A stretch of 37,870 nucleotides of DNA from a virus. This document shows, one piece after another, positions 16,304 to 37,870 of this stretch. The translations under genes were made by a program, and so were the position numbers. The notes under the pieces are model-generated. The model did not search any database and was not told the DNA's origin. It saw nothing but the letters and a program-made list of their open reading frames with translations. The number at the start of each line of letters is the position of its first letter. Position 1 is the first letter of the stretch. The stretch covers positions 1-37,870 of IMG/VR virus record IMGVR_UViG_3300042341_000226; one strand, written 5' to 3'.

Positions 16304-16819
16304 TTAGAAAAAAGTGTAGAGGTTATTTTTGCTTGCGATAAGGTTTGCGCGTTCGATTATGTGAGGAGGCAGAACCTCCGAGAACTTAGTGAAGCCAGCC
16401 TTGAGTGCACCCATCCACCGAGGGCCAACACACCCACCTTCAGCTTCGGTCTTACGGCACCAGATAAGACCCTCAATGGTATCAGCCAACTTGAGGATAG
16501 CCCACTCAGATTCACTGAGCAGTGGCATATCAAGCACGATGTTACTGTGAGCGAAGACTTCAGCCTCGTGCAGAAGTCCTTTTACAGCTGGTTCGCTTAC
16601 CTTTAGGGTAAAGGGCACGTCACCTGTATAAAGCTCCGCCGAATCGTGCAGAATCGCAGCCTGGAGTAGCTCCTTGCTGCAGTTGTCACTGAGCTCAAGC
16701 ACTAGGACAGCCACACCCCATGCGTGAAGGCCAACAGTCTGAGCCTGAACCGTGGGTGCAGCGTGGTAGCGTGACACACGACCGGACTCAAGGGTGGCTA
16801 GGGTTCGTTTATAGTTCAC
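16304..16819 (-). CDS. HD-domain phosphohydrolase (YfbR/dNTPase-like)
   Basis: 171 residues from the GTG at 16819, chosen because it overlaps the preceding TGA (GTGA) and has AAAGGGG 7 nt upstream, one of the best ribosome binding sites in this block. A longer frame from 16870 would overlap the synthase gene by 55 bp. HD-motif residues are His32, His58-Asp59 (ILHDSAE, with Glu62) and Asp113 (KLADTIEG), as in 5'-deoxynucleotidases such as YfbR. Next to a thymidylate synthase-like gene, it may hydrolyse a competing nucleotide (for example dTMP or dTTP), by analogy with phage HD enzymes such as DatZ that remove the normal nucleotide. The substrate is unknown. Confidence 0.8.
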   Translation of the reverse strand: MNYKRTLATLESGRVSRYHAAPTVQAQTVGLHAWGVAVLVLELSDNCSKELLQAAILHDSAELYTGDVPFTLKVSEPAVKGLLHEAEVFAHSNIVLDMPLLSESEWAILKLADTIEGLIWCRKTEAEGGCVGPRWMGALKAGFTKFSEVLPPHIIERANLIASKNNLYTFF

Positions 16820-17862
16820 AGATACACCCCTTTCTGGCCTTTGAGTCGGCGACCTACCCAAGCTACGCACGCCTGTGACCAGTCTTTGGATTCAATTGCC
16901 GTGAGTGCGTCAACAGACGCTCCGAAGTTGCCAAGTTTACGCAGGTGAAATGCGTTGAACACCGGAAGCACTGTTCCATGCAAAAACGGGGAGATTTCAC
17001 GGATGGTGTCTTCAGTATCTTTGGTGATCTGAAGGGGCTTACCAGCGGCAATGGCCATTTCAGCCAACGTGAGGAATACCTCAAGTGCTTGGTCAAACTG
17101 CTTAGGGCTGGTTTTATCACTGAAGAGGGGCACGTGGGTAAAGTTATACACACCTGGATTCTTGATGCTTTTGCGAACTCGATCCCAAGCCCCACCCTGG
17201 TAGGCCGGATCGGTGTATACGTGCAGATTGTTACTGACATGAGTCCATGGGCCCATCTCAAGACCAAGGGCACAAGCTACATATTCCTGAAACATTGAGA
17301 GGTGCACCACGTTGGCGCCAGTCACAATACCCCACACAGCGTCATTTGAGCGGTTGACGCTGGTCATCTCAAGTTCGTTCTGGGTGTTTACCGAGAACAT
17401 CAGCTGGGTGTTACAGGCTTTGTCCTTGGTGCTGCGGAGCAGGTCTTTTGGGTCCCAGATCTGAGCAACGCACTGACGGCTCTCAGGCTTTTGGCGCAGC
17501 TCGTTGATGATTGCTTCGAGTTGATCGAAGCCAAACGTGTGGCGCAGACGCTCACCGTAGAAAGCGTTATAGCGCTCACCGTCGTCACTAAAAGCGTCCA
17601 TGCCCTTAGCAAAGTAGCGTAGGAACGGAACGCTATTGTGGCTACCGAGCATAGCCATGGCTTCCATCAAGTGGAAGAATGGGTTTGCATCACGGCTAGG
17701 GCAGAAGTTTACCCGTTGCCAGGGTTTATTCACGGTCATTGTCGTAACCCCTGGGAGGCGCAACACTGGGCCATTACGGCTGGGCATTTCAATGCCTCGT
17801 GCCTCAAGGGCAATATAGACATGGGAAGCCATGTCGTTGTAGTTTTGTGATTCGAAGTGCAT
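16816..17862 (-). CDS. Thymidylate synthase-fold enzyme (TS or dUMP hydroxymethylase)
   Basis: 348 residues. The fold is recognised by the central KACNTQLMFSVN region with probable catalytic Cys150, the NRSNDAVWGIV motif (Arg171-Ser172-Asp174) that binds phosphate and base, a following Asn184 in the position where Asn favours uracil and Asp marks dCMP hydroxymethylases, and NNLHVY (His214, Tyr216) for the deoxyribose. The enzyme therefore probably acts on dUMP with methylenetetrahydrofolate, giving dTMP (TS) or 5-hydroxymethyl-dUMP (SPO1-type). Because a 5-hydroxymethyluracil DNA kinase-like gene lies close by, the hydroxymethylase is favoured, but sequence alone does not decide it. It is longer than typical TS (about 264). 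Confidence 0.8.
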   Translation of the reverse strand: MHFESQNYNDMASHVYIALEARGIEMPSRNGPVLRLPGVTTMTVNKPWQRVNFCPSRDANPFFHLMEAMAMLGSHNSVPFLRYFAKGMDAFSDDGERYNAFYGERLRHTFGFDQLEAIINELRQKPESRQCVAQIWDPKDLLRSTKDKACNTQLMFSVNTQNELEMTSVNRSNDAVWGIVTGANVVHLSMFQEYVACALGLEMGPWTHVSNNLHVYTDPAYQGGAWDRVRKSIKNPGVYNFTHVPLFSDKTSPKQFDQALEVFLTLAEMAIAAGKPLQITKDTEDTIREISPFLHGTVLPVFNAFHLRKLGNFGASVDALTAIESKDWSQACVAWVGRRLKGQKGVYL

Positions 17863-17880
17863 AGTTGTTGTGGGAAAGTT

Positions 17881-18186
17881 TTAGGCGTCCTTATCTGCGC
17901 TAAATACACATTTGAAATGTATTACGTTGTTTTCTATGTACCAGGCTGTGCCAAATTTGTTATGGTGGTCTGGTAACTTATGGCATGCATTAAGGCCAAC
18001 AGGTATCTGGTACACAACGGTGCGCCCAGTCTTAACACACCAAGCAAGTGCTGCTTCAATTGTGGTAAAACCTCTGACTGGTGCAATTATGTGGCCTGTT
18101 GCGCGATAGTTTTTCGCCTTCTTTGGCGTTGTGCAGTGGTATAGCACACTGGGCGAAATGGTTATTCTGTAGTCGATGTTATTCAT
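17881..18186 (-). CDS. Small protein with ADP-ribosyltransferase-like N-terminal motif
   Basis: 101 residues from ATG 18186. The segment VLYHCTTPKKAKNYRATGH then IIAPVRGFTTIEAALAWC and GRTVVYQIP is a compact pattern seen in small phage proteins. The YHCTT strand followed by a helix and the later PVRGFTT strand recall the first elements of ADP-ribosyltransferase/Tpt1/DUF952-type folds, but the rest is too short to confirm the fold. It sits between the pyrophosphorylase-like gene and the synthase gene inside the base-modification block, and is preceded by a promoter-like element (18187-18224). The function is unknown. Confidence 0.6.
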   Translation of the reverse strand: MNNIDYRITISPSVLYHCTTPKKAKNYRATGHIIAPVRGFTTIEAALAWCVKTGRTVVYQIPVGLNACHKLPDHHNKFGTAWYIENNVIHFKCVFSADKDA

Positions 18187-18224
18187 AGCGCCGTCAGTGA
18201 AACCTTTTTAGTTTCACGTGTAAA
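18187..18224 (-). promoter_or_regulatory. Promoter-like repeat element, copy A
   Basis: Read on the minus strand: TTTACA (18219-18224), 17 nt, TTCACT (18196-18201), 9 nt, then the ATG at 18186. The 17-nt spacer contains an inverted repeat, GTGAAAC-TAAAAAG-GTTTCAC, that could be an operator or hairpin. Four other copies are at 22967, 28612, 31535 and 31924. Confidence 0.6.
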
Positions 18225-18234
18225 GAACAAAGTT

Positions 18235-19107
18235 TTAGTTTGTATACTTTCTTAGAGAAAGCTGTCTCCCACTGCCGAAACTTGCACGCTCATACTTATC
18301 AAATTCGCAGAAGGTGTTTGAGAGGTTATTAGGGTCAAGGAAGTAGTTCTGCACATCATCCCCAACGTCGTACCAAATATCCTCACGGATTTCAATGATG
18401 CGACGGGTATAGTGCTCAGGTAAACCGCTCCCAATTAGCTTAGGATCGGTAACGATCTTACTAGAATCGTAGCGGTCAACCCCGCGACGGCTACCAGGGC
18501 CACACAGCACAAAGGTCTCCCAGTCTGAAGCATCTGACCAGTGGGAGCTGTGGCGTAGGTCGGTGCATACCTGGTTTGTCATGAACTCAGCAAACCCCTC
18601 AAGGCGTAGCAGCTGCTCGGCGACCCCGCTTAGCGTGTGGCACAGCGTCCAGTTCACCTTCTCAGCAGAGAGCAGGATGCGCTCGTAGTAGTCAAGCACT
18701 CGCACGCCTTTATTCTTGGGCCCATGGGCGCCAACCATATACGCACCACGCATGATCTTGTTACCTGAGTCTTGGTACTCACGCAGCTTTGCAAAAGCAG
18801 CACGTACGTCAGTCACTGGCAGCACCTGCTCCAGCGTCTTGGGCTCGTTGAACACACGACCAATTATGTAGTTCACGATGACGTCACGCCTCGATTTGTT
18901 AGCACACCATGGGCGTAGGTTTGCAGCAATCCAGCGTGTGACACTGTCGTGCTCACGGTTTATGTTACAGAAACGGTATTCAGCTATGATCTTGTCGTCA
19001 CTGTGGGGGCCATCACCACCGATGAGCTCCTTACGTATACGTGCTGCCTCACGTGCTCGTATAAAGTAAAGCAATCGGGTTCTCGCTGAGCTGCTACGTA
19101 TTGACAT
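18235..19107 (-). CDS. Alpha-glutamyl/putrescinyl-thymine pyrophosphorylase-like protein (first type)
   Basis: 290 residues. The segment YRFCNINREHDSVTRWI (44-60) is the characteristic motif of the helical family described by Iyer and colleagues as aGPT-Pplase. These enzymes act with 5-hydroxymethyluracil DNA kinases, replacing the activated group on 5-(pyro)phosphomethyl-dU in DNA with an amino acid or polyamine. The family has a HhH glycosylase-like helical fold. Helices about 75-140 and 160-195 complete the domain. It is encoded 6 bp after the DNA kinase-like gene, in the same operon. Assignment to family is fairly sure; the nucleophile transferred here is unknown. Confidence 0.75.
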   Translation of the reverse strand: MSIRSSSARTRLLYFIRAREAARIRKELIGGDGPHSDDKIIAEYRFCNINREHDSVTRWIAANLRPWCANKSRRDVIVNYIIGRVFNEPKTLEQVLPVTDVRAAFAKLREYQDSGNKIMRGAYMVGAHGPKNKGVRVLDYYERILLSAEKVNWTLCHTLSGVAEQLLRLEGFAEFMTNQVCTDLRHSSHWSDASDWETFVLCGPGSRRGVDRYDSSKIVTDPKLIGSGLPEHYTRRIIEIREDIWYDVGDDVQNYFLDPNNLSNTFCEFDKYERASFGSGRQLSLRKYTN

Positions 19108-19112
19108 ATCAA

Positions 19113-19700
19113 TTACAGGTCAAAGATTATTGCCTCAATGAGCGCCAGGGCTGCTTTGCGATTTACGTAGTGCACGTTTGCACCGTTTTCATTGAGCACT
19201 TCAACAGACCGCACTACGGCACCGAACTTGCTCTCAGTGTTCGTGGGGTTTACGGGTGGCTTAGTTGGGTCTTTTGCCCATCTGCGTGAGTTGACTGAAG
19301 CCAAGCATTCGTCGAGTGGGGTGCTGAGCGCCACCACACAGAAACCCTCTTTCCCAAACACCTCATGGAACTCAATAGCACGACCGATAGCAGCACTGAA
19401 CAGTAACCCCTCGAAAAGCACGTGGGTCGACTGTCCGCTGAGCTCGTACACAAGGTTGCATACCATGTCTGTGGTGGGTATGCTATCACAGCCACCGCAT
19501 GCAGTTTCGTAGTGCCCTAGCACCGCCAAGTCAGCGTCCTTCCTAGCTTGGTAGTCAAGAGGGTCATGCCACAGCCTGTAGTATAGGGGCTGCTTGCGAC
19601 CAGTAGTGAACACTGGTTCACGCACAGCGAACTGTGCCATGATGTGCTTGACGATTGTAGTCTTACCGGAGCCGGAGGTTCCGCGTAGGTTGATGATCAT
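19113..19700 (-). CDS. 5-hydroxymethyluracil DNA kinase-like P-loop protein
   Basis: 195 residues. Walker A is GTSGSGKT (7-14) directly after the first strand (MIINLR). The motif GHYETACGGCD (62-72) and VLFEGLLFS (95-102) match the phage 5-hydroxymethyl-dU DNA kinase family, which phosphorylates hmdU bases in DNA as the first step of thymidine hypermodification (Lee, Weigele and colleagues). Other P-loop kinases such as thymidylate kinase lack this GHYE motif. The ATG at 19700 overlaps the phosphatase stop (ATGA), and the pyrophosphorylase-like gene follows immediately, which is the expected partner. The acceptor in this phage remains to be shown. Confidence 0.8.
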   Translation of the reverse strand: MIINLRGTSGSGKTTIVKHIMAQFAVREPVFTTGRKQPLYYRLWHDPLDYQARKDADLAVLGHYETACGGCDSIPTTDMVCNLVYELSGQSTHVLFEGLLFSAAIGRAIEFHEVFGKEGFCVVALSTPLDECLASVNSRRWAKDPTKPPVNPTNTESKFGAVVRSVEVLNENGANVHYVNRKAALALIEAIIFDL

Positions 19701-20143
19701 AGTAGGCAGGGGAGAGTTTTTAAGTAAGCAACGAAGTGCTCGTTTGCTAAGGCATTTGGGCGACCCCTACGCACAGTGTCAATGGCCATTTCACCATCAT
19801 ACCCAAAAAGTTGGTTTAGTATGAGTGCGCTCATGAGCCCACTACGGTTACGCCCAGCGTGGCAGTAAGTCAGGATAGCACCACCTGTGCGTTTGTGTAT
19901 CGTGCAAGCATGCTTGGCGATGAACATAAGCTGCTCAGCGTTCTTGATCTTGTTGTCGGGAATTGGGTTCCACAGGTAGTTTGACCCAAGTAGGTTCCTG
20001 AACCCTTCGTCCTCGTCGCATGCCATACCAACAACGCATTGGATGTTGTACTTGGTTAGCAGGTCGAACTTCAGGTCTTCGGCGCGTCCTAGCATGTTAC
20101 CACGCTGGAACAGGGTTTCTTGGTAAATTGTGTGCACCTTCAT
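19697..20143 (-). CDS. Dual-specificity-type (cysteine) phosphatase
   Basis: 148 residues. The signature TYCHAGRNRSG holds the CX5R active-site loop (Cys94 to Arg100), followed by Ser101; a probable general acid is Asp63 in NPIPDNK. The size and layout fit atypical dual-specificity phosphatases. These can act on proteins, phosphoinositides or small phosphates. Here it is coupled by ATGA overlaps to an aGPT-Pplase-like gene upstream and to the DNA kinase-like gene downstream, so a substrate within the modification pathway is likely: inositol 3-phosphate, a phosphorylated base intermediate, or pyrophosphate. All are inferences from context. Confidence 0.8.
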   Translation of the reverse strand: MKVHTIYQETLFQRGNMLGRAEDLKFDLLTKYNIQCVVGMACDEDEGFRNLLGSNYLWNPIPDNKIKNAEQLMFIAKHACTIHKRTGGAILTYCHAGRNRSGLMSALILNQLFGYDGEMAIDTVRRGRPNALANEHFVAYLKTLPCLL

Positions 20144-21153
20144 GACTTGGTGGGCTGGCTAAGGTTGTTCTTACTCTTGTTCCAGTTGTATTTGCTATCC
20201 GTCCACATATAGCCGTGAACACGTAGGACTTCACCCAGGGGCTTGCGAACCCCGTCCCAGCCATTGAGCTCACCAAGTGCCCACTTGGGGGCAAAAGATT
20301 TACGCGCCTCATACATCTCAGCCTGAGGATGGCCCCAATAGGCTTGCAGCTTCCGGTCGTAATCAAGCTCAGAGTCCTGCGAACGGCCTGGGTATTGACG
20401 CTTACCGACCCAGCACTGCTTGTAGTCACACAGGAGGACTTGCAGCTCATAGTAATCAAGGGTGAGCCCGAATACCCCTGACAAGGTTTCGCGAGCCTCT
20501 GTAGCGATCTGTTCTACCTTTGCAACGGCATCAGGACCGTCGCCGCCGTCTTCTAACAGCTCCTTGTGCTCAGGGTAGAGCAACGCCAGTGCGTGGCGAG
20601 GGCTCCAGCCGTCTTTGGAGCGGATGTCACCAACCTGGACGTCAACACCGCAGTAACGGCGCAGGTATTCAATCCACTTTTGCCCGATGTAACGACCGAA
20701 CCCGTAGATGCCACCACATACATCTTCAAAGGCTTTCTCGTAGCGTTGTGCCTCGTCAGCCACACTGTGCCACGCTTCGATGTGGCCAGTGAGCACATCA
20801 ACGTAGGCTGCTGCGCTACTGATGCACTTTGCGAGCTTCTCAACAGACCGAACGGCCTTGCGCTCACGGCGGAAGGCTATACCACCCCAATTATCAAGCA
20901 ACCATGCCTCAACGTCTGTGTAGCTCAAAGCACTTTCAGGCGTGGGGAACTGCTTACTGAGCACCAAGGCCGTTGGGACATTATACACCGAGGCGTACAA
21001 CACACCCAGCCATGCGGTGCCTCGACGATCAAGGCAACGGGTATCCGATATGCGGCCGATGCAGGCCATGTGTGGATCGGGCCCACCAGCTGCTTTATCA
21101 AGGCGGCAGAAATCGTAAAAGTTCTGCCAATGGTCTGGGTGTGTGTCGCTCAT
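20140..21153 (-). CDS. Alpha-glutamyl/putrescinyl-thymine pyrophosphorylase-like protein (second type)
   Basis: 337 residues. The region DTRCLDRRGTAWLGVLYASV followed by YNVPTALVLSKQFP (about 38-70) and the GGIYGFGRYIGQKWIEYLRR segment (147-166) match a second, distinct clade of the aGPT-Pplase families, which are all helical and related to HhH DNA glycosylases. The protein also has a C-terminal cluster of aromatic and basic residues (KSFAPKWALGELNGWDGVRK). Having two different members in one operon suggests two successive transfers, or one enzyme made of two different subunits. It starts 12 bp after the inositol phosphate synthase gene and ends in an ATGA overlap with the phosphatase. Confidence 0.68.
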   Translation of the reverse strand: MSDTHPDHWQNFYDFCRLDKAAGGPDPHMACIGRISDTRCLDRRGTAWLGVLYASVYNVPTALVLSKQFPTPESALSYTDVEAWLLDNWGGIAFRRERKAVRSVEKLAKCISSAAAYVDVLTGHIEAWHSVADEAQRYEKAFEDVCGGIYGFGRYIGQKWIEYLRRYCGVDVQVGDIRSKDGWSPRHALALLYPEHKELLEDGGDGPDAVAKVEQIATEARETLSGVFGLTLDYYELQVLLCDYKQCWVGKRQYPGRSQDSELDYDRKLQAYWGHPQAEMYEARKSFAPKWALGELNGWDGVRKPLGEVLRVHGYMWTDSKYNWNKSKNNLSQPTKS

Positions 21154-21165
21154 GGTTGGGTTCTC

Positions 21166-22251
21166 TTAGGCGATAGCATCAACGAAGGCATGCATCTGCT
21201 GCAGGGCGACTTCGTCACGGATCTGAACCGGAGGGGTCTTGAAGAAGTACGCAGAGGCGTGCGGGATAATACCACCCACGCCACGGTCAAGGGCGATCTT
21301 AGCCACGCGCACAGCGTCAATGACGACGCCAGCAGAGTTGGGGGAGTCGTGAACCTCGAGCTTCACCTCACACAGCAACGGCACCCCGCCGAACGCCTCA
21401 GCCTCGATGCGGATATGGCAGAACTTCTGATCCTTGAGGAACGGCACGTAGTCGGACGGACCAACGTGGACGGACTCCTCAGGCATCGGGTAACCAATAG
21501 CAGAGGTGACAGCACCCGTCTTGGAAATCTTCTTGGACACGAGGCGCGAACGCTCAAGCATGTTCATGAAATCTGTGTTACCACCAAAGTTGAGCTGGTA
21601 GGTGTTTTTGATCTTAACACCACGATCAGCGAACATCTGGGCAAGCACACGGTGAGTGATGGTGGCGCCAACCTGGGACTTCATGTCGTCACCAATGAGT
21701 GGGAGCTTGGCGTCGGCGAACTTCTGAGCCCACACAGGATTGCTTGCGATGAACACAGGCATGCAGTTAAGGAAGGCGCAGCCAGTCTTCAGCGCCAGAT
21801 CGGCGTAGTAGCGAGTAGCTTCTTCAGAGCCAACGGGGAGGTAGTTCACCAGCACGTCGACGTCCAGCTCCTTGATCAGCTTCTCAAGGTCAGCAGGGGG
21901 GAGGGTTGACTCTTCATACATCTGGTTTTCCTTGATGTAGTAACCAATGCCGTCGAGAGTGACGCCACGCACAACAGGGGCACCGAGCTTGGGCACATCA
22001 CTGAACTTGACAGTGTTATTCGGGAACTCAAAGATGGCTTCGCTCACATCGCGGCCAACCTTGTTCGCAGCGACGTCAATGCCAAGCACGCACTCAACGT
22101 CGTGGACATGGTAACCTCCAAGAGTTACGTTCATCAAGCCAGGGACGCTGGTGTCAGGCTTGGCGTACTTATAGAACTGGATGCCTTGAATGAGGGAGGA
22201 GGCGCAGTTGCCCACGCCGATGATTGCGATACGGATCTTGTTGTGTTTCAT
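21166..22251 (-). CDS. Myo-inositol-3-phosphate synthase
   Basis: 361 residues, the length of the short bacterial/archaeal Ino1 type. The NAD-binding Rossmann motif is [13 protein letters not shown] (11-23); [15 protein letters not shown] (187-201) carries the conserved active-site lysine; and [18 protein letters not shown] with SKKISKT (about 220-245) are core catalytic segments. It converts glucose 6-phosphate to inositol 3-phosphate using NAD internally. Phages rarely need inositol, so the gene probably supplies a building block for the DNA modification made by the downstream genes. It has a CAA-rich leader without a Shine-Dalgarno. The gene looks intact. Confidence 0.93.
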
Positions 22252-29917: not shown

Positions 29918-30385
29918 TTAGAGAGCGTCGTCTTCTTCGGTCTCAGTGACCTCTTCGCCGGAGAGGATCGCCTCGATGGCGGTCTTGAACTTACCGTAGG
30001 CAGCTTCGTCCAGCGCCGTGATGCTCTCGGAACCGAGCTTGCTCAGCACCTCACGCATCTCCTTGTTCTTACCAGCCTTGATGGCCGCTTTACCAAGTTC
30101 GCGGAGAGACTCGATGGTGATCGAATCATCAGCGTCAGCCTTGGGCTCAGGTTTCTTCTCAGCCTTGACTTCAGCCTTCTTCTCGGCCTTAGGCTCAGCT
30201 TTCACTTCGGCTTTCTTCTCCGCCTTGACCTCGGCTTTGGGCTCAGCCTTGACTTCAGCCTTCTTCTCGGCCTTGGGTTCAGACGCAGCACTTGCGCCGC
30301 TGAGCGACAGGATGGAGGCGGCAAGGTCTTGCACTTGCTTACCGATGTCTTTAATGTCTACGCCTTCGATGGTGATCTTAATCAT
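29918..30385 (-). CDS. Lys/Ala/Glu-repeat protein with conserved helical C-terminus
   Basis: 155 residues. A short N-terminal domain (MIKITIEGVDIKDIGKQVQD) is followed by about 45 residues of KAEPKAEVKAEKKAEV-type repeats (41-87) that should be a charged linker, then a globular helical domain (SLRELGKAAIKAGKNKEMRE VL...) with an acidic tail. The family with LRELGKAA-type C-terminal domain occurs in phage replication modules next to SSB and nuclease genes; its role is not known to me. The CAA-rich leader lacks a Shine-Dalgarno sequence. Confidence 0.65.
   Translation of the reverse strand: MIKITIEGVDIKDIGKQVQDLAASILSLSGASAASEPKAEKKAEVKAEPKAEVKAEKKAEVKAEPKAEKKAEVKAEKKPEPKADADDSITIESLRELGKAAIKAGKNKEMREVLSKLGSESITALDEAAYGKFKTAIEAILSGEEVTETEEDDAL
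30141..30280 (-). repeat. Imperfect tandem repeats encoding the KAE-rich linker
   Basis: About 140 bp of imperfect tandem units, roughly 9-18 bp long, encoding alternating KAEVKAE, KAEPKAE and KKAEV blocks. Codons vary between copies, so the array is old or under protein-level selection. Length changes would only alter the linker. Confidence 0.75.
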
Positions 30386-32213: not shown

Positions 32214-32518
32214 AGAAGTTCTTCTCCGGTTTTTGGTTTTGTTGTTTTAGTTTCGCAGGACACAAATCGTCCGCTAAGCAGGAAGTACAGTGCAAGTGCA
32301 CGCTGTGCCTCGGTGTAGTCAGCTTTATTGCTGGAGCCTACGGGCAGTGGACCATTCACCATCGTGTAATCCTTCTCAAGTGCGTCGTACTCGTAGTCAG
32401 TCAGTATTGACTTTGTTAATACGTAGTAGGCGTATCTGCAGGCCATGACCATATCGAGGTCAAAGTCTGATAACGGCACGATGCGTTTGAGTGAGCTAGT
32501 GCGTCGTGCAGCGCTCAT
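32210..32518 (-). CDS. Orphan LigA N-terminal (Ia-like) domain protein
   Basis: 102 residues. The segment YYVLTKSILTDYEYDALEKD (31-50) closely resembles the first part of NAD-dependent DNA ligase (YY-x-x-x-x-x-x-I-x-D-x-E-Y-D-x-L), the Ia domain that recognises the nicotinamide mononucleotide half of NAD. No adenylation (KxDG) domain follows here or in the next genes. It may bind NAD or simply be a phage helical domain of common descent. It is coupled to neighbours on both sides by ATGA overlaps. Confidence 0.55.
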   Translation of the reverse strand: MSAARRTSSLKRIVPLSDFDLDMVMACRYAYYVLTKSILTDYEYDALEKDYTMVNGPLPVGSSNKADYTEAQRALALYFLLSGRFVSCETKTTKPKTGEELL

Positions 32519-33252
32519 AGTGCATCGTTCCGCTCAAGGAACAAATCAAGGCCAAACAAGGTGCCACCCACTCGGTGGATCAAGAACCCTGGCAGCTTTG
32601 TCAGATTATCCTTCGCACCGATGCCGAACTGAGGCATGCACTTGACGATTGTGTAGTCGTGCAGGAGTGCTTCAAGCTGAGCTGACCCAGCGTACTCAGT
32701 GATCTTCCTGGCGTTGTGTAATTCCACTGCAATCTGCTTGACGCTAGAAGGCCACAGATAGTCCGAGTTGAGCAGCCCCCACTCTGCACCCTCGATGTCA
32801 ATCTTCACGTGCGTTGGTTTGAAGCTGCGAATGAGCTCAACTACGTCAAGGTTCTGCACCTTCACGGCGACACTGTTTTTGCACAGCTTACGGGTGACTG
32901 AGCCGGAACACTTGTTACGTATTGAGGTGTTTTGCACCAGTGTTGCCGTTGGCTCATTTGACATGGTCGCAACGGCCTTGTAAACCATCGGCGCAGTTTT
33001 ACCGTTCCAGTGCTTGTCAATGTTCTGACCAAGCACGTTGAAGTTGTCCTCGTCAGGCTCAACCCCGCAGTAGGCTGCAACGCCTGCTTTGAGTGCCATA
33101 ACAGCAAAGCCACCAATGTTTGCCCCTAGGTCGAGCACCCGTGACTTGTGGTCTAAATTGAAATTGCTGTAGTGGCTCTGGCAGTCTTTCACCATCTGCT
33201 TGTCGGTTTGTAAATGTGCTTCGCGCACGAGTGTATCTTTGTAAATGATCAT
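32515..33252 (-). CDS. FkbM-type SAM-dependent methyltransferase
   Basis: 245 residues. SAM-binding motif VLDLGANIGGFA (39-50), acidic VEPDEDN (64-70), and the KIDIEGAEWGLL segment (150-161) are diagnostic of the FkbM family, which usually methylate sugar hydroxyls or small molecules. No DNA-methyltransferase catalytic motif (DPPY or PCQ) is present. In this phage a substrate might be a glycan or the inositol-like base modification, but its location in the primase operon gives no direct evidence. ATGA overlaps link it to the primase gene and to the following gene. Confidence 0.8.
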   Translation of the reverse strand: MIIYKDTLVREAHLQTDKQMVKDCQSHYSNFNLDHKSRVLDLGANIGGFAVMALKAGVAAYCGVEPDEDNFNVLGQNIDKHWNGKTAPMVYKAVATMSNEPTATLVQNTSIRNKCSGSVTRKLCKNSVAVKVQNLDVVELIRSFKPTHVKIDIEGAEWGLLNSDYLWPSSVKQIAVELHNARKITEYAGSAQLEALLHDYTIVKCMPQFGIGAKDNLTKLPGFLIHRVGGTLFGLDLFLERNDAL

Positions 33253-35861
33253 AGCATTTCTTCTCCCTCGTTACCTGACTCTGATTGTTTGATTCGTTGG
33301 TTCGCCATAGCCTGTGCCTCGGAGGCACTGATTTCACTGTCAGCCTTGACCCACAGAGGGTGCTTCTGGCCGTCCTGCAGGGTCCACCTCCCCACCCGTA
33401 GCCAGCCGTCTTCGCGCAGTACGCTGGCCAGGTGCTGGCTGGTTATTTTCTGCAGACCTTGGCCGTCAAGCATCTCCATGAGGGTGGCTGAGCTGATGAG
33501 GTCTTCACGCACGAGTGGGTGAATACTGTCCTCGACGGCTATGCGCACGGCCGACGTAGTGTCAGAGGCTGCGTCGTTGACGAGCTGCTGCAGATACGTG
33601 GTCATAGGTGCGTGACCGTCCGGTGCGAAGTCGTCCGAGATGCGGTGCTCCTCTAGCCACGCACGTAGGCCTGCAGCGTTGTCCCGCAGCATGCGGAACA
33701 GCTTGTCAAAGTGCGCCGTTCCGAGCGCCTGCACCTGCGCCTTTGTCTGCAGAGCTGACTTCAACACAAAGTAACGCCGATCACCTGCACTGAGTGCCAA
33801 GGCGTCGTGGTGGTTGGTGAACAGCAGATAGTTGGTGCGGTTCTCAAGCATGCGGGTATCACGGAACCGTTGGTTCACGCAGATGACGTCGTTGCTGATG
33901 AGGGGTTTCAGCGAGTTCATGACGTCGTGGCGGTTTTGGCCGACTACACGCACTTCCTCGAGCACCACCAACTGCGTTCCATACGCCCAATCGTTCCAGG
34001 TTGAGCGCAGGGCGGACGAATCAATAGGCATCACCTGACCCTTGCCTAGAACCGCACGCATTGCTTCTGCGAGCACGGTCTTGCCGCAACCCTGGGCACC
34101 CTGCAGCAACACTGCCCATCGGATCTTGTGCCCAGGCTTCTGCACAATGTGGGCCAAGTAGTCGAGCAGCGTGCGCCGATAGCTCTCCTCTGCCACGAGC
34201 ACCTTCAGGTGGTCCATGAAGATCTTACCTGCCTCCTCGGCACGCAGCGGATCAGGCTCAGGGTAGTTGCGCACGTACACGTTGACGTACACTTTGCCCT
34301 CGTGGTGGATGAAGGTATCGTTGGGTTGGCTGGGGTCGTACAGCACATCATACGCGGTGGGGATACCCACGATGTTAAGTAGATAGTCCTGAGGGCGGAT
34401 CACGGGACGACCCTTCGTGCCTATGGATTGGTCGCCGCTTTCCTTCATCTGTTCCTCCGTAGGCAACAGGTGACTGCCGTATACACGGTCTAACGCCTCA
34501 GGACTAAAGTATTCCGTGGTGCTGGGTCGGATGAATGTATTCATCTTGCTGGCATATGCCATGCCCTTGCACCACTCAGGCAGCTTGGCCTTGCTGCGCT
34601 TCTTGTCGGCGGCAGCTGCCTTCATGCGTCGCAGATCCTTACGCAACACAGGCACACCGATCTTCATTGGTGGGTTGCACTGTTTGACTGCGTGAGCAAT
34701 CTCTTGCATTAACGACTCCTCCTCGCTCACCGTGAGTAACGGGGTGGCGGCGATACGGCGCAGCCCCTCGTTCACTAACTGTGACGCTGGCATGGGGTCG
34801 CGCCCAGCCTTGCCACTGATCCACGCTAGGGTGGCTGCGTAGCAGCGTGCCTTTGTTGGGTTGGCGTCCCAGCCGTTGGCCGATGCCCGCGACAGGAGTG
34901 ACCGGATGGTGACAGGCACTCGGCCACGAATGTTCGGCTTCAGGGAGCGCCACTTGGCTGTGGTGTCACTGTCGCCTGCATACTTGCTGCCTTGACTTGA
35001 CCAATCGTCAAACAGCTTGAACGCCTCACTGGCGTTGGGCTCAGTCTGGAACTGATGCCGCATTGCTGCTGCGATCTCGAGCCACTCGGGGTAGGTGCAG
35101 TCAGGGTCGATGTGCTTCAGTGCAGACGCTACGTCTTGCAGTGAGATCTCATCAACTATGGGGCGCAAGTAGTCAAGATCGTCAACGGAATCGGCTGCTA
35201 CAGCACCTGAGTTGTGGGAGGGTTTTTGCTCCGTTAGCTGGTCACTGTCGGTATTGCAAATATCAGCCTCTCGGTAGGCGCGACCACCAGTTTCCGAGAT
35301 AATCAAGGGGTGCTGGGTCTCACCCTTGAAGATTGTTGGGAGATACATGGGCTGCACGGCCACACGGCTTTCCTTGTTCACGCGGATCAGTCCTATGCGT
35401 CCCGCTAGATCGTCCAAGGCGTCCTTGTAACGGTTGAGGGGTAAGTGTGCCGCTTCTACCAGTATCCGGAGCCTTGGAGCTGAAGGAATCGAACTGGCGG
35501 TTGTGTGAACCGCAAAGTTGAACGGCATCAGTTGCTCGGCAAGGGTCTCCGGCGAGTTGTGGTAAGGCTTGGCTAGCTCAGGCTCATCAATGTCCAAGCA
35601 GATCAAGGTGATCGATACTGCGAGTTCCAAGTGGCGGGGTGAGGTCTCACCGTCGAAGGTGCACGGCACAACGTAGGGGACTCGCTTGGCCTTCTGACGA
35701 GCCTTGGGGTCCATGTTGGCGTATTGCTCCCTTGTGACGTTGAGAGAGACGGCGAGGTTGAAAACCTCGTCGACGAGTTGACGGAATGAACGGGGTGGCA
35801 GCTTGCGGACGTGTCCAAGATCAGACGCGTCTCCCCCGAAGAAGGTAGGTGACAGTTCCAT
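33249..35861 (-). CDS. Primase-helicase (AEP-like primase, PriCT-2, superfamily 3-type helicase)
   Basis: About 870 residues from the ATG at 35861; a TTG at 35867 has better spacing to a GGAGG and could be the true start. The N-terminal part has LICLDIDEPEL (acidic DxD of an archaeo-eukaryotic-type primase) and VHTTASS with PRLRILVEA. A PriCT-2 segment follows (about 242-335; LKHIDPDCTYPEWLEIAAAM). The C-terminal helicase has Walker A LLQGAQGCGKT near 587-597, Walker B LVVLEEV near 636, and TNYLLFTNHHDAL, as in phage DUF5906/D5 proteins. It synthesises primers and unwinds DNA at the origin, which is probably the non-coding region just upstream. Confidence 0.9.
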   Translation of the reverse strand: MELSPTFFGGDASDLGHVRKLPPRSFRQLVDEVFNLAVSLNVTREQYANMDPKARQKAKRVPYVVPCTFDGETSPRHLELAVSITLICLDIDEPELAKPYHNSPETLAEQLMPFNFAVHTTASSIPSAPRLRILVEAAHLPLNRYKDALDDLAGRIGLIRVNKESRVAVQPMYLPTIFKGETQHPLIISETGGRAYREADICNTDSDQLTEQKPSHNSGAVAADSVDDLDYLRPIVDEISLQDVASALKHIDPDCTYPEWLEIAAAMRHQFQTEPNASEAFKLFDDWSSQGSKYAGDSDTTAKWRSLKPNIRGRVPVTIRSLLSRASANGWDANPTKARCYAATLAWISGKAGRDPMPASQLVNEGLRRIAATPLLTVSEEESLMQEIAHAVKQCNPPMKIGVPVLRKDLRRMKAAAADKKRSKAKLPEWCKGMAYASKMNTFIRPSTTEYFSPEALDRVYGSHLLPTEEQMKESGDQSIGTKGRPVIRPQDYLLNIVGIPTAYDVLYDPSQPNDTFIHHEGKVYVNVYVRNYPEPDPLRAEEAGKIFMDHLKVLVAEESYRRTLLDYLAHIVQKPGHKIRWAVLLQGAQGCGKTVLAEAMRAVLGKGQVMPIDSSALRSTWNDWAYGTQLVVLEEVRVVGQNRHDVMNSLKPLISNDVICVNQRFRDTRMLENRTNYLLFTNHHDALALSAGDRRYFVLKSALQTKAQVQALGTAHFDKLFRMLRDNAAGLRAWLEEHRISDDFAPDGHAPMTTYLQQLVNDAASDTTSAVRIAVEDSIHPLVREDLISSATLMEMLDGQGLQKITSQHLASVLREDGWLRVGRWTLQDGQKHPLWVKADSEISASEAQAMANQRIKQSESGNEGEEML

Positions 35862-35960
35862 AGGCAACGGGGTGTTTACCTCCCTTTACTTTGAAGGCAA
35901 GTTTAATTGTTGATTAACTTTGCAGACCTATAAGACTGATAAAAATAATCAGTCCCACCA

Positions 35961-36126
35961 TCAGTCCCCCTCTCAAAAATGGGGTCAAAGACCGCAAGAC
36001 TGATAAATACTTATAGAATACACGTGTAAGGAGAAAAATTAGAATAGAGAAATCCAAAAATTATAATATAATAGAGGTAAAAATGAGTCTTGCGGTCTGC
36101 AAGGGTGTTTTTGAGAGGGGGACTGA
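35961..36126. repeat. Long inverted repeat flanking an AT-rich core
   Basis: Left arm 35961-36001 and right arm 36086-36126 match in inverted orientation: 19 identical bases at the outer side (TCAGTCCCCCTCTCAAAAA), a 9-bp different segment, and 13 identical bases inside (AGACCGCAAGACT). The core (36002-36085) is AT-rich with TATAATATAATAG. Related AGACC-N3/4-AGACTGAT units occur at 35924-35940, 35989-36004, 36086-36098 (inverted) and 36203-36219 (inverted). Confidence 0.85.
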
Positions 36127-36259
36127 TTGTCAGACCGAGGTCCGGACTGATTATTATCAGTCTGAAGAATACAGCTTGTTTTGATGGAGACCGCTCAACT
36201 TTATCAGTCTAACGGTCTGTAAGGAGGTGTTTTGGCCTATTAAGCTGACAAGTGTGACA

Positions 36260-36328
36260 GCTAATCCGTGCAAAATGCCCTTAGCATGTTCTCTCATGGA
36301 GAATCCGTTTTTCGCGGATTAGCTTTTT
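36260..36328 (+). terminator. Hairpin with T-run inside the non-coding region
   Basis: A compact hairpin (AATCCG 36302-36307 with CGGATT 36315-36320), or a larger one using 36260-36268 with 36315-36323, is followed by TTTTT (36324-36328). It would end a rightward transcript started within the AT-rich core, perhaps a small RNA or origin transcript, before the 36434 gene. It may instead be a binding site. Confidence 0.4.
36262..36284 (+). repeat. 23-bp direct repeat, copy 1
   Basis: TAATCCGTGCAAAATGCCC then TTAG; it differs by one base from the copy at 36342-36364, 80 bp away. A shorter inverted relative (CGCGGATTA) is at 36313-36321. Possibly protein binding sites controlling the rightward gene. 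Confidence 0.85.
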
Positions 36329-36341
36329 GGGGCTTGTGATG

Positions 36342-36364
36342 TAATCCGCGCAAAATGCCCTTAG
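36342..36364 (+). repeat. 23-bp direct repeat, copy 2
   Basis: TAATCCGCGCAAAATGCCC then TTAG, 22 of 23 identical to copy 1. It lies 70 bp before the start of the RHH-like gene, a suitable place for an operator. Confidence 0.85.
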
Positions 36365-36433
36365 GAGTATTGTTAATCATGATGAAATATGTGCTTTACT
36401 ATTTTTCACTAGCAGTTTGACTCCTTTGGCAAG

Positions 36434-36889
36434 ATGTGCGACTTACTTTCACGGGTATATTACAGCGGACACGCTGGTCGTCCAAAGATGGAACGGTGCG
36501 AGACCACGACCATTAAAATGGACAAGCGTTTGCGCACGGAGATGCTGGATTACTGCGTGGAGAACAGCCTGACACAGCGCAAGTTCTTTGAGCTTGGGAC
36601 TGACCTGCTGCTGATCCATGGAGATGCGTTCTGTCGCCATATACGTAAGAACCGCGTTGGCGGACGTAAACGCCCACCCCATCACATGACGACCCTACGC
36701 TTGAACAAGAGGGTGTGGCGTCTGATGACTCAGTTCTGCCTTGACCGCGATGTGTCACAGCGTGAGTTCTTCGAGGGAGCCACTGCCCTACTGGTGATGA
36801 GTCAAGAATTCAAGCGACGCATCAAGGCACGCAAAGTTTTAGCTGAACAGCAACGTGAGGAGAAACTGCTACAAGCAGAACTACTATGA
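36434..36889 (+). CDS. Tandem ribbon-helix-helix-like DNA-binding protein
   Basis: 151 residues (or 133 from the ATG at 36488). Two internal copies are clear: TTTIKMDKRLRTEMLDYCVE with NSLTQRKFFELGTDLLL (24-60), and MTTLRLNKRVWRLMTQFCLD with RDVSQREFFEGATALLV (85-121). Each has a short basic strand followed by two helices, as in MetJ/Arc repressors, so one chain may act as a pseudo-dimer. The C-terminus is charged and helical. It is the first gene of the terminase operon and sits beside the repeat region, which may contain its binding sites. Confidence 0.65.
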   Translation: MCDLLSRVYYSGHAGRPKMERCETTTIKMDKRLRTEMLDYCVENSLTQRKFFELGTDLLLIHGDAFCRHIRKNRVGGRKRPPHHMTTLRLNKRVWRLMTQFCLDRDVSQREFFEGATALLVMSQEFKRRIKARKVLAEQQREEKLLQAELL

Positions 36890-37368
36890 TTAAAGGTGAT
36901 CGCCGAATACTTGATAGGACTGAGCTCGGTGGGTACTCGCCTGAAGTCGCCATGGACTTGGGCCAAGAGCCACTGATGCCGTCAAAGCGACACACCCTAC
37001 GCTGCAAACGTAGAGAGCTACGCCTATCGCGCCTAGCCAAGCAATACATCATAGACTACAACCTGCCGAAAGCGTGCGCACGAGCAGATCTAGACTGGAA
37101 AGACGTCAAGGATGCTGAGCGAGACCCTTTCTTCATACAGCTAGTGCAGGAGCTCGTAGAGACAATAGATCCCGACCTAGTGATGAGTAGGCAGGAGGTG
37201 CTTATGGCGTTCAAGAAGGAAGCGTTTCATGGTGACAAATCTGCGTCACGCATCAAGGCACTTGAGTGCTTAGCACGACTCATGGGTATGGAGTTGCCTG
37301 ATCCTAACAGTAAAGACACGTCAAGCCTGCCACCAACCATCAACATCACCCTCACTCAAGCCAAATGA
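36886..37368 (+). CDS. Terminase small subunit
   Basis: 160 residues. Helices with YNLPKACARADLDWKDVKDA (a helix-turn-helix-like N-terminal part) and then RQEVLMAFKKEAFHGDKSAS and RIKALECLARLMGMELP fit phage small terminases, which recognise the packaging site and hold the large subunit. Its stop overlaps the next gene, and the large subunit follows two small genes later. It also overlaps the RHH-like gene (ATGA), so it is in the same transcript. Confidence 0.8.
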   Translation: MIKGDRRILDRTELGGYSPEVAMDLGQEPLMPSKRHTLRCKRRELRLSRLAKQYIIDYNLPKACARADLDWKDVKDAERDPFFIQLVQELVETIDPDLVMSRQEVLMAFKKEAFHGDKSASRIKALECLARLMGMELPDPNSKDTSSLPPTINITLTQAK

Positions 37369-37541: not shown

Positions 37542-37762
37542 AGCACACAGGCACGAAGGACTTCGTCGACGGTGCCGTTGACCTCATGAAGCAGGGCAAT
37601 CACACCTTCCTGATTGTGGCCATTGATCCCACAGGCAAAGATACAGCCAACTACATGATTCGTGCTGGGTGCACCACTAAAAAGAATCTGCGACGCCTGC
37701 GCGATATAGTGAATGACTTCGTGGTCGACCACCTTGAAGGGATGGTAGATGAGTCAGCTTAA
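37538..37762 (+). CDS. Small hypothetical protein between terminase genes
   Basis: 74 residues. KDFVDGAVDLMKQGNHTFLI, then VAIDPTGKDTANYMIRAG and a basic helical segment (TKKNLRRLRDIVNDFVVD) and an acidic end. No family recognised. It overlaps the preceding stop, and the terminase large subunit starts inside its end (37749). Confidence 0.6.
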   Translation: MKHTGTKDFVDGAVDLMKQGNHTFLIVAIDPTGKDTANYMIRAGCTTKKNLRRLRDIVNDFVVDHLEGMVDESA

Positions 37763-37870
37763 CTTATCACTCCACGAGCGTCAGACTCAGGCGCTGCTCA
37801 GCGACGCCAACGAGATGCTCTACGGTGGTGCAGCAGGAGGTGGTAAGAGCCACCTGATGCGCGTAGCCTC
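37749..37870 (+). CDS. Terminase large subunit, N-terminal part (3' truncated)
   Basis: 40 residues are visible, beginning MSQLNLSLHERQTQALLSDA. The segment MLYGGAAGGGKSHLMRV holds the Walker A motif of the terminase ATPase (GGAAGGGKS). A GAAGGGATGG ribosome binding site lies 5-14 nt upstream of the ATG at 37749. The gene powers DNA packaging with its C-terminal nuclease, which lies outside the window, and on a circular map leads toward the portal and capsid genes. Confidence 0.92.
   Translation, partial: MSQLNLSLHERQTQALLSDANEMLYGGAAGGGKSHLMRVA

Follow-up and report, generated by a model that had tools for sequence, protein, structure and literature searches.

The α protein of P4 binds the repeats of its replication origin via a winged helix (PMC4234260), and SaPI Rep and SCCmec Cch2, self-loading helicases of the D5/SF3 type, recognize and bind short iterons (PMC7581432). 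These proteins provide precedents for primase-helicase and helicase initiators that bind repeats. In pRN1, whose replication protein has the same domain order as the protein described below, the putative origin, a stem-loop of 100 nt, lies downstream of the replication gene (PMC4234260), and for NrS-1 two 8-nt recognition sites in the middle of the genome have been suggested as a possible origin (PMC7102993). With pRN1-like downstream stem-loops proposed and the NrS-1 origin only suggested, the location of the origin in phages with such primase/SF3-helicase fusions is unsettled. The phage locus analyzed here offers a defined candidate of 290 bp, together with natural variants that carry different repeat words. 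We consider it on balance probable that this region is an iteron-type origin whose AT-rich core is unwound by the primase-helicase and which lies within a divergent promoter region.

A Mirrored Repeat Array Beside the Primase-Helicase Gene

The window, the entire stretch of DNA under analysis, is the whole 37,870-bp virus record of an uncultured phage. Its first gene, within which the contig starts, encodes a major head protein, and its last frame (37749-37870) is the beginning of a TerL-like gene, so that the record is apparently incomplete, with part of the packaging/head module missing. The contig ends, which may be assembly ends, lie away from the repeat region. The latter occupies about 290 bp of a 566-bp intergenic gap (35868..36433) that, according to the list of open reading frames, separates the divergently oriented genes for the primase-helicase (minus strand) and a ribbon-helix-helix (RHH)-like protein (plus strand), and that contains the whole element.

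The word GACTGAT occurs there at eight exact sites (35934+, 35948-, 35960-, 35998+, 36121+, 36145+, 36156-, and 36203-), four on each strand, within the 276 bp from 35934 to 36209; five further copies are present elsewhere in the contig vs. about four expected by chance. An unbiased scan for 7-mer clusters ranks this cluster first in the contig. Across 60 simulated genomes, no 7-mer cluster exceeded six copies vs. the eight GACTGAT sites observed, and simulations of the same word gave a mean of 0.1 and a maximum of 2. When the AT-rich gap was simulated alone, 2 of 2000 runs also reached eight copies of some word (low-complexity words unfiltered); the genome-wide rank, the word-specific simulation and the dyad are consequently the better tests.

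This dyad is an imperfect inverted repeat with a left arm at 35949..36020 (plus strand) and a right arm at 36067..36138 (minus strand), each 72 bp long. The arms match at 52 of the 72 positions (Smith-Waterman score 32, with no score above 16 among 60 simulations), and their inner 20 bp, ATCAGTCCCCCTCTCAAAAA/TTTTTGAGAGGGGGACTGAT, pair perfectly. Between the two halves lies the AT-rich core (36003..36072), a putative unwinding element; with 20% GC it is the 70-bp GC minimum of the contig (0.20 at 36003 vs. 0.54 for the genome). Four larger units are arranged around it: AGACC-N4-AGACTGAT at 35924..35940 (+), AGACC-N3-AGACTGAT at 35989..36004 (+) and at 36203..36218 (-), and, with one mismatch, AGACC-N3-AGACTCAT at 36083..36098 (-), the units at 35989 and 36083 being the innermost ones on the left and right, respectively, and facing the core. 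Two palindromes are present as well, AGACTGAT-N7-ATCAGTCC at 35933..35955 and, on the side of the RHH-like gene, GGACTGAT-N4-ATCAGTCT at 36144..36163. The single-stranded DNA fold of the region has a z-score of -8.9. Array and dyad far exceed chance.

The elements that a preceding sequence-only reading had described are borne out by these data: eight GACTGAT copies in 276 bp split evenly between the strands, their position directly beside the primase-helicase start (35867, minus strand; 66 bp from the array), repeats that flank an AT core, and AGACC-N3/4 units in two direct and two inverted copies. Its inverted repeat of 41 bp is likewise present around the AT core, but this length was too low.

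Searches of the region against Rfam, and of its nucleotide sequence among phages, yielded no match. An exact DNA pattern, AGACCGNNAGACTGAT, was tried on viral contigs and dropped, as its 94 matches were scattered and nearly all single.

The Primase-Helicase as Candidate Initiator

The neighboring gene (33249..35867, minus strand) encodes an 872-aa primase-helicase with a primase-like N-terminus, a PriCT_2 domain, an SF3 helicase domain (DUF5906, VapE-like, and matching the NrS-1 structure) and a predicted C-terminal winged helix at about residues 769-841. The C-terminal region of the NrS-1 polymerase is the closest solved structure to the helicase half (6k9c/6k9e, E ~1e-21; Foldseek E 2.9e-17). 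Our structure model of the whole protein has a mean pLDDT of 80.7 and a pTM of 0.44. Within this whole-protein model, residues 769-841 are arranged in the order helix-strand-helix-helix-strand-strand with pLDDT values mostly of about 80-88, from which a winged-helix topology of the C-terminus is predicted. The C-terminal part is also the least conserved region of the protein in most pairs compared, as fits a domain whose binding site turns over. Among the 30 window proteins scanned, none other looked like an initiator.

Like P4 α, this protein unites primase and helicase in one polypeptide, with a predicted winged helix in the place of the C-terminal one through which P4 α binds origin repeats. 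Its primase, unlike that of P4, is not of the Toprim type, since PriCT_2 and AEP-like phage DNA primase families were found instead, and we therefore do not class it as a member of the P4 α group, a separation made at the level of the proteins. With SaPI Rep and Cch2 it shares the helicase type, but in those elements the origin is found downstream of the helicase gene and the primase is usually separate, whereas the array described here lies upstream, between divergent operons. The likeness to pRN1 extends to two genes, as its ORF904 is a primase-SF3-winged-helix protein (the winged helix being predicted here) and its ORF56 a small repressor, for which the RHH-like protein is a possible counterpart. 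Judged by this analogy, pRN1 is a counter-precedent, for its candidate origin is a downstream stem-loop and not an upstream iteron array. A downstream stem-loop of the pRN1 type is ruled out in the window, where the next gene (32515-33252) overlaps the end of the primase gene at 33249 and leaves no gap. NrS-1 differs in having two 8-nt sites instead of an array.

An S-x-H motif is usual in phage primases of this type. At the corresponding place, residues ~119-135, the protein of the window and most of its relatives read TASS when inspected by eye, and the primase active site may thus be altered.

Related Phages Keep the Layout and Change the Repeat

Searches of viral contigs provided relatives whose primases are 30-59% identical, and 14 contigs were scanned without motif preselection; the phages collection held only primases of about 27% identity, and genome contigs searched with the primase alignment contained no relatives. 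Among relatives with primases 42-59% identical, the layout is kept and the sequence is not. Six of them, with five distinct arrays, carry a both-orientation motif array of their own at the point where the primase and terminase operons diverge. The repeated word is AGCGGTAG in L002/G001, GGACCGAT in L099/G002 and its near twin G003, TGACCGTAT in L101/G004, TGCCTGAT in L112/G013, and AGCCGGGTAG in L107/G010 (seven copies, near-full ones included, in the order ++++/---). A loose GACYG/ACCG theme runs through RGACTGAT, GGACCGAT, TGACCGTAT, TGCCTGAT, and CTACCGCT. The N7 spacing of the left palindrome of the window recurs as GGACCGAT-N7-ATCGGTCC upstream of the L099 primase. The position next to the primase gene is kept except in G013, where one gene, HNH-like by our own reading, intervenes, and in G010, where the array lies 3.65 kb from the primase gene and adjoins terminase-like genes.

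The array of a relative is usually the strongest both-orientation cluster of its contig and usually lies at the contig GC minimum. In the both-orientation scans the locus took first place in the window and in four relatives (G001, G003, G004, and G010). With k=8 it also came first in G013, and it ranked second in G002. The latter contig (loci L122-L124) also contains, at ~45432-45763, a very strong cluster of the single word CCGACTGC (17 copies), probably a coding tandem repeat. Eleven contigs have an AT core upstream of the primase gene, and in nine of them, with the near twins G002 and G003 counted separately, it is the lowest-GC 70 bp of the contig, 97-748 bp upstream of that gene; in the remaining two, G005 and G009, it is the second lowest. 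The GC minimum is not upstream of the primase gene in G007, G010, G014, and G015, whose primase neighbors differ; the AT-rich stretch inside the G010 array is the third lowest of its contig. According to a table of head-to-head sites read by eye, with at most one mismatch allowed, the coordinates of the innermost motif copies place them on both sides of the AT core and facing it in the window, G001, G004, G013, and G012. The innermost copies of G008 lack this arrangement.

Four direct copies of GACTTAAA precede the primase gene of G009, and no array was found directly upstream in the primase relatives L113-L118. In G007, G014, and G015, scans of the whole contig revealed no both-orientation array placed about an AT core; the highest-ranking clusters there were repeats dominated by one strand, which were taken as coding without checking each. 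Casjensviridae and similar phages (AH2, AXY1, JS26, and SS2019XI, as well as FoX4, whose record gives no family) possess a homologous primase of ~27% identity that, unlike the one studied here, is preceded by a small co-directional gene (annotated as Cro in AH2 and FoX4), and no repeat array was found upstream of it in these five phages. Because these cultured relatives show no such array, an upstream array is not a general rule for primases of this kind.

An Iteron-Type Origin as the Favored Interpretation

Three sequence marks of an iteron origin are found at this locus: a cluster of repeats beyond chance, an adjacent AT-rich element and a candidate initiator gene next to both. A conserved position, changing words mirrored around an AT core and an SF3 initiator candidate are, taken together, as expected of an origin of the initiator-iteron type. 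The sequence-only reading had left the choice between a replication origin and a multi-operator switch. The relatives favor the origin, because the layout is conserved while the repeat sequence changes and because arrays occur without a detectable RHH gene, which at the same time weakens the switch. Besides the pRN1 counter-precedent, the cultured phages lacking an array and the 3.65-kb distance in G010, further observations speak against an origin. Arrays are weak in G012 (GCGACC, four copies) and G008 and not clear in G005 and G006, the AT core being clearer than the repeats in all four; and the innermost head-to-head sites of G002 flank a pyrimidine-rich stretch instead of the GC minimum.

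We infer a mechanism in which the primase-helicase would use its predicted C-terminal winged helix to bind the GACTGAT repeats, each of the mirrored halves of the array seating one SF3 helicase ring, with the two rings facing opposite ways. The rings would melt the AT-rich core between the halves, and bidirectional forks would start from there, using the protein's primase activity together with a family A polymerase and an SSB encoded by the phage. As the replication and terminase operons would be transcribed divergently from promoters in this same stretch, binding would autoregulate both. A more far-reaching version, in which one mirrored array serves as origin, autoregulated divergent promoter and start site for terminase, and in which the word changes with the DNA-binding domain of the initiator from phage to phage, strikes us as a long shot.

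A Possible Multi-Operator Switch

The gene on the other side of the region (36434..36889, plus strand) encodes a 151-aa protein with two RHH-like repeats, a possible regulator according to weak profile matches (regulator 6gyg, E=0.0014; Pfam RepB-RCR_reg, E=0.0022, below the cut-off of that family) and a model of low confidence, with which Foldseek found no significant match. Such a protein might itself bind the repeats and control the divergent replication and terminase promoters, in the manner of the pRN1 repressor or the plasmid omega protein, which act on short operators present in repeated copies. We regard this as unlikely, yet as carrying appreciable weight. RHH operators typically take the form seen here, a 7-bp unit present in both orientations inside a divergent promoter region; the heptads of pSM19035 have reportedly been the subject of published work. 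The pRN1 repressor gene orf56, moreover, shares an operon with the replication protein (PMC4234260).

Searches with the RHH-like protein itself gave no matches in viral contigs or phages. A profile of its family located the gene beside the array in the window, G001, G002/G003, and G012, and beside the AT core in G005 and G006; no significant match was obtained in G004, G008, G010, and G013, several of the relatives being fragments and G004 a short one, in which a diverged regulator could be missed. Three carriers of an array (G004, G013, and G010) are thus without a detectable RHH gene and two genomes with the gene (G005 and G006) without a clear array, and, as judged from these profile matches, the array does not track the RHH gene. 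Both observations count against a switch, as does the small number of sigma-70-like promoters in the region (2 found vs. 1.5 expected).

The leader of the RHH-like gene (36259-36364) has a feature of its own: two near-identical 23-mers, TAATCCG(T/C)GCAAAATGCCCTTAG, flank a terminator-like hairpin, and the segment CGGATTAGCT is able to pair with either copy in an attenuator-like fashion (RNA fold z=-2.97).

A Possible Packaging Site

The packaging operon on the other side of the region makes a pac or cosB site, with repeats recognized by the terminase small subunit, a further candidate beyond the two of the sequence-only reading, which we consider rather doubtful. The probable gene of this subunit (36886..37368, plus strand) has no Pfam match of its own; its homologue in L002 (3816-4259) weakly matches Terminase_2, and our assignments of small subunits are based on position and on such weak profile matches in relatives. 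TerS-like genes adjoin the array, as immediate neighbors in L101 and L105. A TerS-like gene does so even in G010, whose array fits a packaging site as well as an origin, given its 3.65-kb distance from the primase gene and its terminase neighbors. The usual form of cosB or pac, however, is not that of many copies mirrored about an AT core, and the RHH gene lies between the region and TerS in most contigs (window, G001, G002/G003, G005, G006, and G012). With these terminase neighbors, a packaging site is the rival least touched by our data.

RHH proteins can serve as centromere binders, but a partition-like site (parS), or another structural site, to which the RHH-like protein binds is highly improbable, as no ParA-type ATPase was seen among the 30 proteins scanned, a subset of the reading frames of an incomplete contig.

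Additional Features of the Window

GC skew was considered as an origin indicator and set aside: every gene of one arm is on the same strand, which confounds transcription skew with replication skew and keeps the measure from deciding. The second strongest 7-mer cluster of the contig, six copies of AAGGCTG at 30073-30262, lies inside a gene (29918-30385). A phage protein with a Myo-inositol-1-phosphate synthase domain (Pfam E=4.6e-36) is encoded at 21166-22251. Positions 16816-21153 contain genes for hypermodified-thymine DNA (thymidylate synthase family, 5-hmdU DNA kinase HMUDK, and amino acid:DNA transferase ADDT), and, since the repeats contain T, this modification could affect binding to them.
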